From Serinibacter salmoneus (lineage in GTDB: Bacteria; Actinomycetota; Actinomycetes; Actinomycetales; Beutenbergiaceae), in contig NZ_PDJD01000001.1 in the NCBI RefSeq assembly GCF_002563925.1, forward strand, positions 1,804,973-1,868,972: a stretch of DNA of 64,000 nucleotides, in the 5' to 3' direction. This document shows positions 725 to 52,591 of the stretch, one piece after another. The notes under the pieces are model-generated. The model ran no database searches and was not told the DNA's origin. It saw nothing but the letters and a program-made list of their open reading frames with translations. Position numbers and translations under genes: made by a program. Position 1 is the stretch's first letter; each line of letters starts with the position of its first letter.

Positions 725-2224
725 ATGTCCGACCAGGGGTTCCAGATCGCCGCCGTAGTGGTCTACTTCGCGCTGATGCTCGGCATCGGCTACTACGCCT
801 ACCGCAAGACCGCCAGTGACCTCGGCGGCTACATGCTCGGCAGCCGGGGGCTGCGGCCGAGCGTCGCCGCCCTCTCCGCCAGCGCCTCCGACATGTCCGG
901 GTGGCTGCTGCTCGGCCTCCCGGGCGCCATCTACGCCGCCGGCCTGATCGAGGCATGGATCGCCATCGGCCTGATCATCGGCGCGTGGCTCAACTGGACG
1001 TACGTGGCGCCCAGGTTGCGGGCCTACTCCGAGATCTCCGACAACGCCATCACGATCCCGAGCTTCTTCGCCAAGCGCATCAAGGGGAATGTGCGGCCGC
1101 TGCGGATCTCCGCCGCGATCGTGATCCTCGCGTTCTTCACCTTCTACGTCTCCTCCGGGATGGTGGCGGCCGGGAAGTTCTTCGTCAGTTCCTTCGGGTG
1201 GAACTACCTGGCCGGGATGGGGCTGGTGGCGGTCATCACGCTCGCCTACACCCTCTTCGGCGGGTTCCTCGGCGCCACCCTGACCGATGTGGCGCAGGGC
1301 CTGTTGATGTTCGCGGCGCTGATCGCGGTGCCGATCGTGGCCGTGGTCCAGATGGGCGGCATCACCGAGACGGCGAACGCCATCACCGCGGTGAACCCGG
1401 AGGCGTTCAACCTGTTCGCGGGGATCAGCGAGGACGGCGCCCTGCTGTGGACGATCGGTCTGATCTCCACCGCCGCGTGGGGCCTGGGCTACTTCGGTCA
1501 GCCGCACATCATCGTGCGCTTCATGGCGCTGCGCACCCCGGCGGAGGCCAAGGTGGGCAAGCGGATCGCCATCAGCTGGATGGCGCTGACCGCCGCCGGC
1601 GCGATCGCCACCGCATTGATCGGCATCGGCTACTTCGCGCAGAACCCGGACGCCAGCCTGGCCGATCCGGAGACGGTGTTCCTGGTGCTGAGCCAGGTGT
1701 TCTTCCACCCGTTCGTGGCCGGCCTGGTCCTGGCCGCGGTGCTGGCGGCGATCATGTCGACGATGTCCTCCCAGCTCGTGGTGTGCTCCTCCGCGCTCGT
1801 GGAGGACCTGTACAACATGGTCGGCAAGCGCTCCTCCGACCGCGCCCAGCTGATCCTGGGCCGCGTGGGTGTGCTCGCGGTGGCGGTCGTGGCCGCCCTG
1901 CTCGCCCTGGACCAGAACGCCGCGGTGCTGGACCTGGTGGCGTTCGCGTGGGCCGGCTTCGGTGCCGCGTTCGGACCGATCGTGTTGCTGTCGCTGTACT
2001 GGAAGAAGCTGACCGCCGAGGGCGCGATGGCCGGTCTGGTGACCGGTGCGATCGTGGTGGGCGTGTGGGGCAACGTGCCCGCGCTGACCGGCGCGATGTA
2101 CGAGATCGTGCCCGGGTTCCTGCTCAACCTGCTGGTGGCCGTGGTGGTCAGCCGGATGACCGCACCGGAGAACCCGGGCGTGGAGCAGGAGTTCGACGAG
2201 ATGGTCGAGGAGGTCACAGGCTGA
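725..2224 (+). CDS. putP: Sodium/proline symporter, PutP type (SSS family)
   Basis: A 499-residue polytopic membrane protein of the sodium:solute symporter family that should import proline with Na+. The PutP signature SASASDMSGWLLLGLPG lies at residues 51-67 and contains the aspartate needed for Na+ binding in characterised PutP. Length matches the family (about 500 aa). The start at 725 follows GGAAAGGAC; an in-frame ATG at 686 would add 13 polar residues and lacks a ribosome site. The last 11 bases overlap the 3' end of the convergent kinase gene. Strong membrane periodicity runs throughout. Substrate is assigned from the family signature, not from context; no put genes are adjacent. Confidence 0.9.
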   Translation: MSDQGFQIAAVVVYFALMLGIGYYAYRKTASDLGGYMLGSRGLRPSVAALSASASDMSGWLLLGLPGAIYAAGLIEAWIAIGLIIGAWLNWTYVAPRLRAYSEISDNAITIPSFFAKRIKGNVRPLRISAAIVILAFFTFYVSSGMVAAGKFFVSSFGWNYLAGMGLVAVITLAYTLFGGFLGATLTDVAQGLLMFAALIAVPIVAVVQMGGITETANAITAVNPEAFNLFAGISEDGALLWTIGLISTAAWGLGYFGQPHIIVRFMALRTPAEAKVGKRIAISWMALTAAGAIATALIGIGYFAQNPDASLADPETVFLVLSQVFFHPFVAGLVLAAVLAAIMSTMSSQLVVCSSALVEDLYNMVGKRSSDRAQLILGRVGVLAVAVVAALLALDQNAAVLDLVAFAWAGFGAAFGPIVLLSLYWKKLTAEGAMAGLVTGAIVVGVWGNVPALTGAMYEIVPGFLLNLLVAVVVSRMTAPENPGVEQEFDEMVEEVTG

Positions 2225-3251
2225 CCGAGTCGAGCCCCCGCGGCTCGGGGGCGGCAGTGGGCATGGGGAACCACGCACCCAGTCGCCGCTCCTGAAGTGA
2301 CTGCAGGGCTCGGGGGCCGATCCGCTCGGCGAGGCAGAACGCCCCGTCGAGCGGGTCGCCCACGGCCCGCGTGACCTCCGCGCCCGGCAATCGGCGCAGG
2401 ACTTCCGCGCGAAGCGCCTGCGCGGTCACGCCGCCCTCGGAGACGACACCGCCCGTCCAGGTCACGCGGCGCGAGGCTCCCGGGAACGCCGCCGCACACA
2501 GCGTGCGAGCCAGTTCCCTGCCGGCCTCTCGACAGATCGCCGCACTGAGGTCGTCACCCTCGAGCGCGAGCTGGGCCACGGGGCGGGCGGCGCGCGCGAG
2601 GATCCCGGCGCGTTCGTCACTGGTGTAGAGCTGCGCCGCCCAGGAATCCACCTCCCCCAGCTCGGCCGTGAGCGCCTCGCGCAGGCGCACCGGGTCCATG
2701 CGGCGGCCGTCCACAGCCTCCACGACGGCGCGCATCGCCTGGCGGCCGATCCAGGCCCCGCCGCCGAGGTCACCGAGCAGGTGCCCCCAACCGTCGACCA
2801 CCCGCCAGGACGTGGCCATGTCGGTGCCGAGGCCGACCGAACCGGTCCCGGCCGCGACCATCGCACCGGGATGTCCGTCCAGGGCGCCGACGGCGGCCGT
2901 CACGGCGTCGGAGACGATCAGGACCTCGCTGCGTGGGAGGTCCGCCCGCACCCGTTCGGCCACGGAGCCGAGGTCGCCTCCCAGACCGACGATCCCGGTT
3001 GCGCCGATCACCACGAGCGTCGGCCCCTCACGCAGGTCCTCACCGGCGACGGGGCCTGCGGCCTCGAGCGCCAGGGCCAGGACCCGCGAGACGACACCCG
3101 CGAGACCGAGTCCCGCCTGCGAGATCGACATCCCTGGCCCCTGGAGCCGGGGCGAGCAGGAGGACCCCCACCGCTGCCATCGCGCCCGGCTCCCCGACCC
3201 ACCGACGTCGATCGCGAGACGGTGCCACGACCTGCGGTCCATTGACCTCAT
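2214..3251 (-). CDS. BadF/BadG-family amino-sugar kinase, probable MurNAc/GlcNAc kinase (MurK/NagK-like)
   Basis: A 345-residue ASKHA-fold kinase. The N-terminal phosphate-binding motif DVGGSGSRAR is at residues 15-24 and a second loop, AAGTGSVGLG, follows in the middle; these are typical of the BadF/BadG family that includes GlcNAc kinase and clostridial MurK. The start codon overlaps the murQ stop as ATGA, so translation is coupled. With MurQ directly upstream, the likely reaction is ATP-dependent 6-phosphorylation of imported MurNAc and GlcNAc, which gives MurQ its substrate. Specificity between the two sugars cannot be read from sequence, so no gene symbol is given. It is the last gene of the salvage regulon. 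Confidence 0.82.
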   Translation of the reverse strand: MRSMDRRSWHRLAIDVGGSGSRARWQRWGSSCSPRLQGPGMSISQAGLGLAGVVSRVLALALEAAGPVAGEDLREGPTLVVIGATGIVGLGGDLGSVAERVRADLPRSEVLIVSDAVTAAVGALDGHPGAMVAAGTGSVGLGTDMATSWRVVDGWGHLLGDLGGGAWIGRQAMRAVVEAVDGRRMDPVRLREALTAELGEVDSWAAQLYTSDERAGILARAARPVAQLALEGDDLSAAICREAGRELARTLCAAAFPGASRRVTWTGGVVSEGGVTAQALRAEVLRRLPGAEVTRAVGDPLDGAFCLAERIGPRALQSLQERRLGAWFPMPTAAPEPRGLDSVSL

Positions 3252-50468: not shown

Positions 50469-51449
50469 TCACTTCCAGTCGGCCAGCGCGGCGTCCAGGG
50501 CCGCGTCCAGACCGGCGGAGGCCGGCAGCAGGTCCTCGGCCACGCCGTCGCCCTCCAACACCCCGAGGGAACGCAGCTCGGGGGCCAATTGGGTGGCCAG
50601 GGCGACCACATCGGTGGGCACGGAACCGGGGAGGATCACCACGCCGTCGACCGCCCCGGAGGCATACCAGGCCTGCAGTTCCTCGGCCACGCCGCGGGCG
50701 GTGCCGGCGATCGTGAGGGTGTCGGCCTGGGCGCCCAGGTCGCGCAGCAGGTCGGCGCGGAAGAGGGCGGAGGCGGCGTCGTCCCCGATCACGGTGATGG
50801 CGTCGACGACCACGCGCACGTCATCGGGGTTGCGGCCGGCCTGGGTGGCGGCGGTGCGGATGGCGGTGCGCCACTCGCGGGCCTCCGCGATGGTGCTGAC
50901 GCGCAGGCGCACCACGTCGGAGTGGCGGCCGGCGACCACGGCGGTGGCGCGGTCGGTCGGGGCGGTCACCAGCAGCGGGCGGCGCCCGCCGGTGTTGGCG
51001 TCCCTGTTCGCGGCCCAGACGCGGCGGATCTCCTCGTGCACTCCGCCGGCGGTGGTGCTGATCGGCACCTGCCAGCCGCCGTTGCCGCCGGTGCGGGCGT
51101 GGATGCCGGCCACGGCGCGAGCCAGGCGGACCGGGTCGATGAACCCGGCGGGCAGGGCGGGGGCGATCGCGGGGCCGTCGGTGAGGTGGCCCTCGGCGCC
51201 GAGGCGGGAGGCGAGCACGGCCGGGTCGAGCCAGGCGTCCTGACGGGAGGTGTCCTCCAGGCGGAAGGACTCCCCCACGGTGACGAGCTCGACCCCGGCC
51301 TCGCGGGCCAGGTCGAGGTACTCGGCGACGTCGGTCAGGGAGACCTTCTCGCCGGTGCGGGCGGTGGCGCGCCGCTGCACGCTGGCCTTCGCGCCAAGGG
51401 TGGTGAGGTCGAGGCCGAGAGTGAAGCGGGTGCTGGTGGTTGCAGACAT
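50469..51449 (-). CDS. LLM-class flavin-dependent monooxygenase under SAM-IV control
   Basis: A 326-residue luciferase-like protein: [15 protein letters not shown] at the N-terminus, [14 protein letters not shown], an [14 protein letters not shown] segment and [26 protein letters not shown]. These match the TIM-barrel LLM family. It is preceded by a leader of roughly 450 bases with a SAM-IV riboswitch and a Met/Cys-rich leader peptide, so it is almost certainly part of sulfur-amino-acid metabolism, perhaps oxygenolytic release of sulfite from an organosulfur compound. The divergent flavin reductase would supply FMNH2. Substrate unproven. ATG at 51449. Confidence 0.82.
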
Positions 51450-51656
51450 GAGAGTGGTCCTGGTTCTCCTGCGCGGGGCAGGGGCGATGTGTGGGGGCAC
51501 GCGCGCTCGCTCGCGCCATTTGGGCGCGGGGCGCATCGGGGTGCGCCTGAGGTGCGCGGCGGCGTGCCGGGGTTGTGTGGGTACGACGACGGTGGGGGCT
51601 GGTCTGGCCAGCAGGTGCGAGGAGCCCGTGGGCCTAGTCGCTGAACCGCACCGCCG

Positions 51657-51746
51657 TCAGCGCATACACAGGCATGCCATCGGCATGCCACACATCGAGG
51701 ACGTGGTGGAGTGTCGCAGGGTTGGGGTCTGCACTCGCGTTGCCAT
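51657..51746 (-). CDS. 29-residue Met/Cys-rich leader peptide
   Basis: A short frame starts at ATG 51746, nine bases after AAGGAA, and ends with TGA at 51657. Its last 12 residues are MCGMPMACLCMR: four Met and three Cys in twelve. This density is what a transcriptional or translational attenuator sensing charged tRNA-Met or tRNA-Cys would need. It lies between the SAM-IV aptamer and the monooxygenase, and hairpins follow it (for example GGCGCA/TGCGCC at 51530-51547). A competing frame over part of this region is discussed among the rejected items. Confidence 0.65.
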   Translation of the reverse strand: MATRVQTPTLRHSTTSSMCGMPMACLCMR

Positions 51747-51784
51747 CGTGTCCAGTTCCTTCGGGGTTCCCCGCCGTGGCGGGG

Positions 51785-51896
51785 TGAGCGCTTGCACTGG
51801 CAGGTAGCCAGCGCCTGGTCGTCACCCGGGGCACCCCGCCGCAGAGGAGGGTTGCCGGCCAGCTAGCCGGGGCTGTGTGCTGGCACTCAAGACCGT
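51785..51896 (-). ncRNA. SAM-IV riboswitch
   Basis: On the minus strand the sequence follows the SAM-IV consensus closely: GGTCTTGAGTGCCAGC, AGCCCCGGCTAGCTGGCC, GGCAACCCTCC, GCGGCGGGGTGCCCCGGG, TGACGACCAGG and, in the pseudoknot/P4 part, GCAAGCGC. The aptamer starts about ten bases after the -10 box. It is followed by a short CCCCGC/GCGGGG hairpin and then the ribosome site of the leader peptide, so ligand binding probably controls translation of that peptide. Confidence 0.93.
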
Positions 51897-51903
51897 GACG
51901 CTC

Positions 51904-51936
51904 ACGCTAGGGCGGATTGAGTTGTCGTGTCAACTC
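51904..51936 (-). promoter_or_regulatory. Promoter of the SAM-IV transcript with overlapping dyad
   Basis: TTGACA (51933-51928) and TAGCGT (51909-51904) on the minus strand, 18-bp spacer. The inverted repeat GAGTTGACACGACAACTC (51936-51919) covers the -35, so a repressor may act in addition to the riboswitch. Confidence 0.8.
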
Positions 51937-52039
51937 TCTGCGCGTGTGACGCGCACCGCGTGTTCCACCCTCTCGTCCATCATGTGGAACGCCTCACGAA
52001 CCCCTGCACGTGGACCTGTGACGGTCGTAGTTTCGATGC

Positions 52040-52591
52040 ATGAGCCCGTCAGCCCCCTGCAGCACGCGGCAGCGCCCCGCCGAGGCCGTGGACGCCACCG
52101 CGTTCAAGGACCTCTTCCGCCGCCACCCGGCCGGGGTGGCGATCGTGACGCTGGAGGGCCCCGACGGCCCCGTCGGATTCACCGCCACCTCGGTGATCTC
52201 GGTGTCCGCCGAACCGGCCTACCTGGCCTTCTCCATCGCCCAGGCTTCCTCCTCCTATGGCGCGCTCGCGACGGCGTCCAGCGCCGTGGTCTCCTTCCTC
52301 GCCCAGGACCAGGCCGAGTTGTCGGTGCGGTTCGCGACCTCCGGGATCGACCGGTTCGCCGACCAGCACGTGGCCTACCTCCCCACCGGCGAGCCGCGCC
52401 TCGCCGACGTCGACTCCTGGGCCCGGATCGAGCTCACGGAGCGGGTGACCGCCGGGTCCTCGCTGTTGGTGGTGGGCCGGGTCACCGACCTGGTTGACGA
52501 CGGCGCAGCCGACCCGGGCGCACCGGCCCGCCTGGTGTACGTGGACCGGACCTATCACCGAGCGGACGCCGCGAGTCAGATCGCGCCGTAG
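52040..52591 (+). CDS. Flavin reductase family protein
   Basis: A 183-residue FMN-binding split-barrel flavin reductase (HpaC/DIM6-type): FKDLFRRHPAGVAIVT, GFTATSVISVSAEPAYLAFS and the conserved HVAYLPTGEPRLADVDSWA region. It should reduce free FMN with NAD(P)H for a partner monooxygenase. Its gene is divergent from the SAM-IV-controlled LLM monooxygenase, the natural partner. A TAGTTT box (52028-52033) lies six bases before the ATG, indicating a leaderless message without the riboswitch. Confidence 0.88.
   Translation: MSPSAPCSTRQRPAEAVDATAFKDLFRRHPAGVAIVTLEGPDGPVGFTATSVISVSAEPAYLAFSIAQASSSYGALATASSAVVSFLAQDQAELSVRFATSGIDRFADQHVAYLPTGEPRLADVDSWARIELTERVTAGSSLLVVGRVTDLVDDGAADPGAPARLVYVDRTYHRADAASQIAP

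Follow-up and report, generated by a model that had tools for sequence, protein, structure and literature searches.

A SAM-IV riboswitch followed by a conserved Met/Cys-rich leader frame: a candidate two-input sulfur control before an LLM-type monooxygenase gene in Serinibacter salmoneus and relatives

The leader of an LLM-type flavin monooxygenase gene in Serinibacter salmoneus contains a full-length SAM-IV riboswitch aptamer, a Shine-Dalgarno (SD)-led upstream open reading frame (uORF) rich in Met and Cys codons and a stem at the uORF stop codon, and the presence of all these elements together with the LLM gene was confirmed in the 64,000-nucleotide stretch of DNA analyzed here (the window; Table 1). 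The arrangement of SAM-IV, long leader, and LLM gene was found at 37 loci from four family-level groups of one order, and a short SD-led frame occupies the same slot in every one of the 37, as the earlier note on this DNA had anticipated when it proposed aligning SAM-IV loci for a conserved Met/Cys-rich frame. We consider it probable that this is a two-input sulfur-control leader, in which the riboswitch would gate translation of a Met/Cys leader peptide and ribosome stalling on that peptide would lead to LLM expression. For the wider proposition, that in all four family-level groups a riboswitch gates, in series, a codon-sensing peptide of the same pathway, giving a NOR gate tuned by lineage from Met plus Cys to mainly Cys, the balance seems to us to tip slightly in favor.

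SAM is the end of the methionine branch. In the proposed circuit, plentiful SAM would cause the riboswitch to block uORF translation, and the leader would stay in a default non-permissive state; at low SAM, the uORF would be translated. With charged Cys-tRNA, and in most lineages also charged Met-tRNA, the ribosome would run through and depart, and the stop-codon stem would re-form. With uncharged tRNA, it would stall on the UGU/AUG codons and cover the 5' arm of the stem, and the LLM gene would be expressed. The monooxygenase, probably serving organic-sulfur scavenging, would be made only when SAM and charged Cys/Met-tRNA are both short, which is the logic of a NOR gate. The leader would work like a leader-peptide attenuator set under a riboswitch.

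Table 1. Features of the LLM leader and its surroundings in the window
Feature	Position	Strand	Basis or remark
Dyad GAGTTG-ACACGA-CAACTC (GAGTTGACACGACAACTC) over the -35	51919..51936	-	from sequence; similar in part of the relatives
-35, TTGACA	51928-51933	-	inside the dyad
Likely -10, TAGCGT	51904-51909	-	from sequence
SAM-IV riboswitch aptamer, RF00634	51783..51894	-	102 bits, full length
uORF Shine-Dalgarno, AAGGA	51757..51761	-	from sequence; GAGGAA/GAAGGA types there in most relatives
uORF, 29 codons, Met/Cys-rich leader peptide	51657..51746, stop codon included	-	conserved in relatives
Stem I inside the Met/Cys codons, GGCAUGCC-GAU-GGCAUGCC	51671..51689	-	covariation, 7 sequences
Stem II 5' arm (GCGCUGACGGCGGUG); starts in last sense codon, spans uORF stop	51649..51663	-	
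Stem II 3' arm (CACCGUCGUCGU)	51583..51594	-	folds and covariation
LLM-type flavin monooxygenase, 326 aa, ATG at 51449	50469..51449	-	AGGA at 51458-51461
Flavin reductase (PF01613), divergent neighbor of the LLM gene	52040..52591	+	domain match

The aptamer reported in the earlier note was recovered by its covariance model (RF00634) over all 116 model positions (1-116), with 102 bits (gathering score, 38), and it is the sole Rfam match in 51440-52050, even at E ≤ 1. The ribosome site and 29-codon peptide described behind it are likewise present: GAAGGA stands 5' of the ATG of a frame encoding MATRVQTPTLRHSTTSSMCGMPMACLCMR, which ends MCGMPMACLCMR. The LLM frame as given in the ORF listing runs from 51536; the relatives and an AGGACC ribosome site favor the ATG at 51449.

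Relatives were searched for the LLM protein in 79 genomes (43 matched) and for SAM-IV in 59 (46 matched), and the order-wide search covered 396 genomes for each, the LLM profile at 1e-20 being found in 84 and SAM-IV in 225. The 37 loci are made up of the 25 first compiled (24 relatives and the window) and 12 loci of f3 and f9; L027-L031, L062-L068, L070, and L074-L097 are repeat genomes of the set, and L069 is identical with L138 and counted once. Among 40 further fetched loci, 34 were scanned for SAM-IV, leaving out L156-L159, L166, and L167 as well as weaker LLM matches without a locus. The scan took in 40 loci in all, and SAM-IV precedes the LLM gene in 17 of these, 12 with the uORF and 5 without it (L154, L163, L164, L169, and L171); L059 is a sixth locus without it. 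In the first 25 loci, the frame has 25-35 codons and starts 58-83 nt past the aptamer core, with ATG in 23 and GTG in two (L048 and L054), and the peptide is 24-40 residues long throughout the set. At least four Met/Cys occur among the last 16 residues at 32 of the 37 loci, corresponding to 32 of the 33 scored automatically (L069 standing for L138). The five loci below four, namely L132, which was scored, and L101, L140, L142, and L143, counted by hand on the peptides, have two or three each, mainly Cys ahead of the stop; Met is missing from the last 16 residues in four of them and occurs once in L101. A wider origin of the LLM protein, also considered, was not borne out, as its profile at E ≤ 1e-35 matched two of 396 genomes sampled from the phylum, including the genome from which the window comes.

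The sequence of the peptide varies by lineage. For example, the uORF encodes MVTRVQSPSPLLPASSSMMCGTPCACMCMR in Miniimonas, MIQDRTTVPQRPALRFATCMMCCCSMSA in Ruania, and MAQAKVLRFGRTTRSNMGACMCMCPCTKA in Pseudactinotalea; at four f3 loci it reads MTTHLSPRQ(I/T)TSR(C/R)GSSMCMCGRPCMSV, and at two f9 loci of genus g60 (one of them Flavimobilis) it ends ...RMCMCMSTCADRCCQR. Six f9 loci of genus g45 (L101, L103, L132, L140, L142, and L143) have the ends SCCR, PCCR, LCR, ACR, SCRCR, and RCRCRR, and UGU-CGC-UGA terminates the uORF in five of these six. With few or no Met codons near the end, the input in the g45 lineage seems to be Cys alone.

The frame is not a general companion of SAM-IV. The comparison set was 91 SAM-IV loci with other genes behind them: 39 with a class V aminotransferase, 30 with MetY, and 22 with others, by motif test. 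None has a frame of 15-60 codons that starts 35-110 nt after the aptamer core and contains as many as three Met/Cys among the last 16 residues. These controls are mostly high-scoring aptamers rather than a random sample, and L011, whose contig ends 67 nt past the aptamer, and the LLM duplicates L014, L015, and L019 were left out. Six SAM-IV loci before more distant LLM genes (L059, L154, L163, L164, L169, and L171) are also without a Met/Cys-rich frame. The frame is therefore specific to this LLM group, and neither to SAM-IV generally nor to all pairs of SAM-IV and an LLM gene.

The earlier note also placed hairpins between the peptide and the gene, and this was borne out: the leader folds strongly (z -4.25), and the stem located at the stop codon of the uORF is conserved. 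Stems I and II are common to seven leaders of the window's subgroup, in which 92.5% of cells pair, compared with 23-57% in slid versions; covariation is 0.241, a value that none of 500 shuffles reached (0.154 after shuffling), with six pairs changed on both sides. Stem II, which is invariant over half its length, contributes just one of these six pairs, so covariation supports mainly stem I, where five of seven pairs have both partners changed in one or more of the 7 sequences. The 5' arm of stem II would fall within the stretch occupied by a ribosome at the last UGU/AUG codon. The structure behind the uORF differs among subgroups, the Ruania type having another hairpin 3' of the stop, with 98.3% of cells paired and a single pair changed on both sides. 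A stop-codon stem common to the Ruania subgroup, worked out by eye, was rejected, as it fails in at least L044, L046, L051, and L056.

The leader shares with classical attenuators a conserved SD-led frame before the gene (37 of 37) and a run of regulatory codons near the end of that frame. It is not classed with them because no intrinsic terminator with a U-run was found in the window's leader. High-GC bacteria have few intrinsic terminators. A search for mutually exclusive hairpins gave no alternative pair common to the subgroups, and the stop-codon stem is conserved in one subgroup. A case for Rho from composition was rejected: the leader behind the uORF is rich in C (43%, with 29.5% G), but the same holds to about the same degree for seven SAM-IV/MetY leaders, and composition is hence no evidence for Rho. 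As to the output, the same first steps could end on translation, with the stalled ribosome unmasking the LLM ribosome site, an account that overlaps with ours in everything except the last step. Mycobacterial Cys leader ORFs have been termed translation attenuation (PMC13236596, citing Canestrari 2020, in the portion of the text available), and in a crude model of stalled-ribosome masking the predicted accessibility of the LLM start rises from 0.31 to 0.57 in L041. On the other hand, the mean over 25 loci is unchanged (0.51, 0.50, and 0.51), effects in single loci go both ways, with lowered accessibility under a stalled ribosome in L034 and L046, and 140-273 nt separate the uORF stop from the LLM ATG in these 25 loci. 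We therefore regard a translational output as unlikely, and a final step on transcription, through Rho or through a hairpin without a U-run, as the more likely one.

How the riboswitch would reach the uORF is suggested by distance. Between the aptamer core and the uORF start there are 75 nt in the median (n = 25), and for class V aminotransferase genes behind SAM-IV, for which the first SD-preceded start was taken, 79 nt (n = 38, quartiles 74-82), so the uORF occupies the position where SAM-IV puts one class of its targets, one that it appears to control directly. MetY genes behind SAM-IV start at varying distances, from 59 to 301 nt; the slot is therefore not fixed for SAM-IV as a whole, and this slightly reduces our confidence in the favored explanation. 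The earlier claim that SAM sets uORF translation through SAM-IV thus receives support from placement, which is consistent with such control; consensus folds of two subgroups contained no conserved pairing that hides the uORF SD. The same placement agrees with a simpler account in which the uORF is a coupling element and nothing else: SAM-IV would control its translation, translation would protect the mRNA from Rho or decay, the LLM gene would be a plain SAM-off gene, and the Met/Cys codons would add little. Riboswitch-controlled uORFs of such a sort are described in Mycobacterium tuberculosis, as far as the accessible parts of PMC11260477 and PMC12810186 go. However, a coupling element does not predict in-frame Met/Cys at the terminus, the enrichment of UGU codons described below, or the absence of the frame behind 91 other SAM-IV aptamers, and we judge this account to be quite unlikely.

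The codons themselves speak for a sensor. A count over 464 kb of this genome, made up of 20 stretches and the window, gave 2657 ATG frames of 15-60 codons, nested starts included, 377 of them with an SD-like site; two of the 2657 have at least six Met/Cys in the last 16 residues, a threshold picked after the uORF was seen, and the window uORF alone of these two has an SD-like site. Met plus Cys make up 2.3% of codons in 200 long ORFs of this genome. Compared with its own dinucleotide shuffles, the window uORF alone is only modestly unusual (7 versus 3.9 Met/Cys, p 0.045), and the L036 uORF is not significant (p 0.085), so that the case for enrichment rests on the set of loci: over 25 loci, 161 Met plus Cys were observed versus 66 expected from dinucleotide shuffles. 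These 161 are found among 716 in-frame residues; Met plus Cys come to 12.2% and 1.4% in the two remaining forward frames and to 2.4-9.6% in the reverse frames, and the uORF frame has the highest Met plus Cys content of the forward frames in 25 of 25 loci. An alternative 66-codon frame over the uORF was discarded, as it has no NCBIfam match and its frame is the Met/Cys-poor one, with 1.4% in the 25 loci. The Met/Cys residues are concentrated at positions 2-13 ahead of the stop (25 loci).

Variation within and between lineages points the same way. Both Met columns of MCCCxM are invariant in the Ruania-type subgroup, whose 12 loci give 10 distinct sequences, and among these 10 the three Cys columns switch between UGU and UGC with one CGC exception. 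UGU accounts for 79 of 568 Cys codons in this genome. In 23 distinct uORF tails, it accounts for 45 of 83 Cys codons, but for 29 of 167 in long ORFs at those loci (Fisher p 4e-9), and in the six g45 loci for 13 of 14 versus 4 of 38 in the long ORFs of eleven f9 loci (p 5e-8). A stalling sensor would be expected to use rare codons for the sensed amino acid, and the UGU bias fits this. The sensing of Met-tRNA or Cys-tRNA proposed in the earlier note is thus favored by the frame-specific enrichment, the near-synonymous variation of Cys codons in one subgroup, the rare UGU, and the clustering before the stop; the part of it that does not hold throughout is Met, because the six g45 loci end mainly in Cys.

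These observations also bear on whether the peptide itself acts, as a Cys/Met micropeptide with a role in metal binding or in thiol or redox sensing, or as a ribosome-arresting nascent chain. CCC, MCMC, SCCR, and similar motifs might coordinate metal, and a length of 24-40 residues throughout would suit such a product; however, outside the Met/Cys codons nothing is common to the subgroups, the peptides tried gave no NCBIfam or Pfam match, some loci retain just one or two Cys before a final Arg, and the UGU preference would suggest decoding speed rather than chemistry, which together leave an acting peptide improbable. A further reading, in which an RNA hairpin built on the palindrome GCAUGC gives rise to the Met/Cys codons incidentally and the frame goes unread, is very improbable, for although in this genome these codons sit in stem I (GGCAUGCCGAUGGCAUGCC) and the window uORF is just modestly enriched over its shuffles, other subgroups arrive at Met/Cys through different DNA, the enrichment is frame-specific, the SD-like site and start codon are kept, and the Cys columns switch between UGU and UGC.

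The product of the controlled gene is an LLM-type protein of 326 aa, shorter than its NtaA/YtnJ-type relatives (about 420-450 aa). PF00296 matches it just above the cut-off (30.8 versus 27.9), and the four NCBIfam families that matched are all below theirs. Among relatives of solved structure, a profile search ranked MoxC/YtnJ first (E 5e-29); next came a nitrilotriacetate monooxygenase and an enzyme of dibenzothiophene desulfurization. The structure predicted for the protein (mean pLDDT 82.5) matches the folds of NtaA, BdsA, YtnJ, DmoA, and SfnG; by profile and fold together the protein resembles MoxC/YtnJ, NtaA, DszA/BdsA, DmoA, and SfnG. Some of the close fold matches act on non-sulfur substrates. 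A flavin reductase similar to the divergent neighbor in the window lies near the LLM gene in at least 9 of the 24 relatives' loci L033-L056, a lower bound set by a flank of about 1.5 kb. Because of the SAM-IV control and these relatives, the LLM gene product is most likely an FMN-dependent enzyme for organosulfur scavenging.

Some loci show further features around the gene. Two f9 genomes have an additional SAM-IV pointing in the direction opposite to the LLM gene (L142, 2069-2171 (+); L143, 762-891 (-)), with a gene behind it that, from a motif, looks like one for an NADPH-dependent FMN reductase, and the Cys uORF is on the LLM side only. L169 has two SAM-IV aptamers back to back (1538-1648 (-) and 2342-2459 (+)), scoring 105 and 102 bits; they are separated by about 0.7 kb, and one stands directly 5' of an LLM gene without a uORF. 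In L055 and L056 (genomes G002 and G021), the LLM match is split in two, which may point to a broken gene, although both loci retain the aptamer and the uORF.

A dyad on the -35 had been put forward as a third layer of control. The dyad itself is there, and a perfect or imperfect one is found at the same place in L034-L036, L039, L041-L044, L046, L049-L053, and L056, for example as GGTTGACACGGCAACC in L034 and L036 and as GGTTGACACGTCATCC in Ruania types. TTGACA is absent from that place in 20 SAM-IV loci before other genes, and a promoter consensus scan of the window's leader returned none at its cut-off. The dyad over the -35 is a possible operator, and the additional layer is at present a lead only.

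Each half of the proposed device has precedents. PMC1262725 and PMC4633059 report actinobacterial Cys leader peptides that lack an obvious terminator; to judge from the accessible sections of both, these leaders resemble the frame studied here in being short, with Cys codons near the stop, and in lying 5' of sulfur genes, and the mycobacterial ones (PMC1262725) also in having no conserved terminator. The Cys leaders of PMC4633059 differ in that they are on leaderless mRNAs and, in the part of that paper available, are not tied to a riboswitch, whereas here an SD-led frame follows SAM-IV and usually contains Met too. In Streptomyces lividans, metL before metNIQ (PMC8079986, in excerpt) similarly encodes a 29-residue peptide with a Met/Cys-rich end before a sulfur amino acid operon, but it is leaderless, and SAM-IV is given separately there, before a cysteine desulfurase gene. 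In Rhodobacterales, a Cys uORF motif with a terminator precedes cysS (PMC8632094, from the passages available). On the riboswitch side, the B12 riboswitch/uPPE2 (PMC11260477) and Mbox/rv1805A (PMC12810186) systems of M. tuberculosis share with the present leader a translational riboswitch with a uORF as its first target, but the available portions of these papers describe no codon sensor for an amino acid matching the pathway. A SAM-II riboswitch is an example of translation controlled at a distance (PMC9373788, in the part consulted). Tandem riboswitch logic gates (PMC5912903 and PMC9481103, both in partial text) also bring two inputs to one leader and differ in that both are ligand aptamers; in the accessible text of the review PMC9481103, the word "leader" occurs in the reference list only. 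The SAM-IV aptamer (RF00634) is of full length here, and, unlike at the 91 other loci, a Met/Cys-rich short frame precedes the gene. No description of SAM-IV combined with a leader peptide, and nothing on a SAM-IV riboswitch with a monooxygenase, was found in the literature searched, which is weak evidence of novelty as most subscription papers lie outside that search. The suggestion that two such sensors in series had not been described needs narrowing accordingly: the combination was not found, but riboswitch-controlled uORFs are known from M. tuberculosis and Cys/Met leader peptides from Actinobacteria, so far as the sources available to us go, and what may be new is their combination.

Were the proposed circuit to hold, it would be a natural two-sensor gate made from an aptamer and a translating ribosome that read linked metabolites, SAM and charged Cys/Met-tRNA, and it would show a riboswitch re-aimed from a gene to a sensor peptide. 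The lineage series, with Met plus Cys in some uORFs and mainly Cys in others, provides a natural experiment on the sensed amino acid. From a wider point of view, the arrangement makes a testable claim on how high-GC bacteria may join riboswitches to attenuation.
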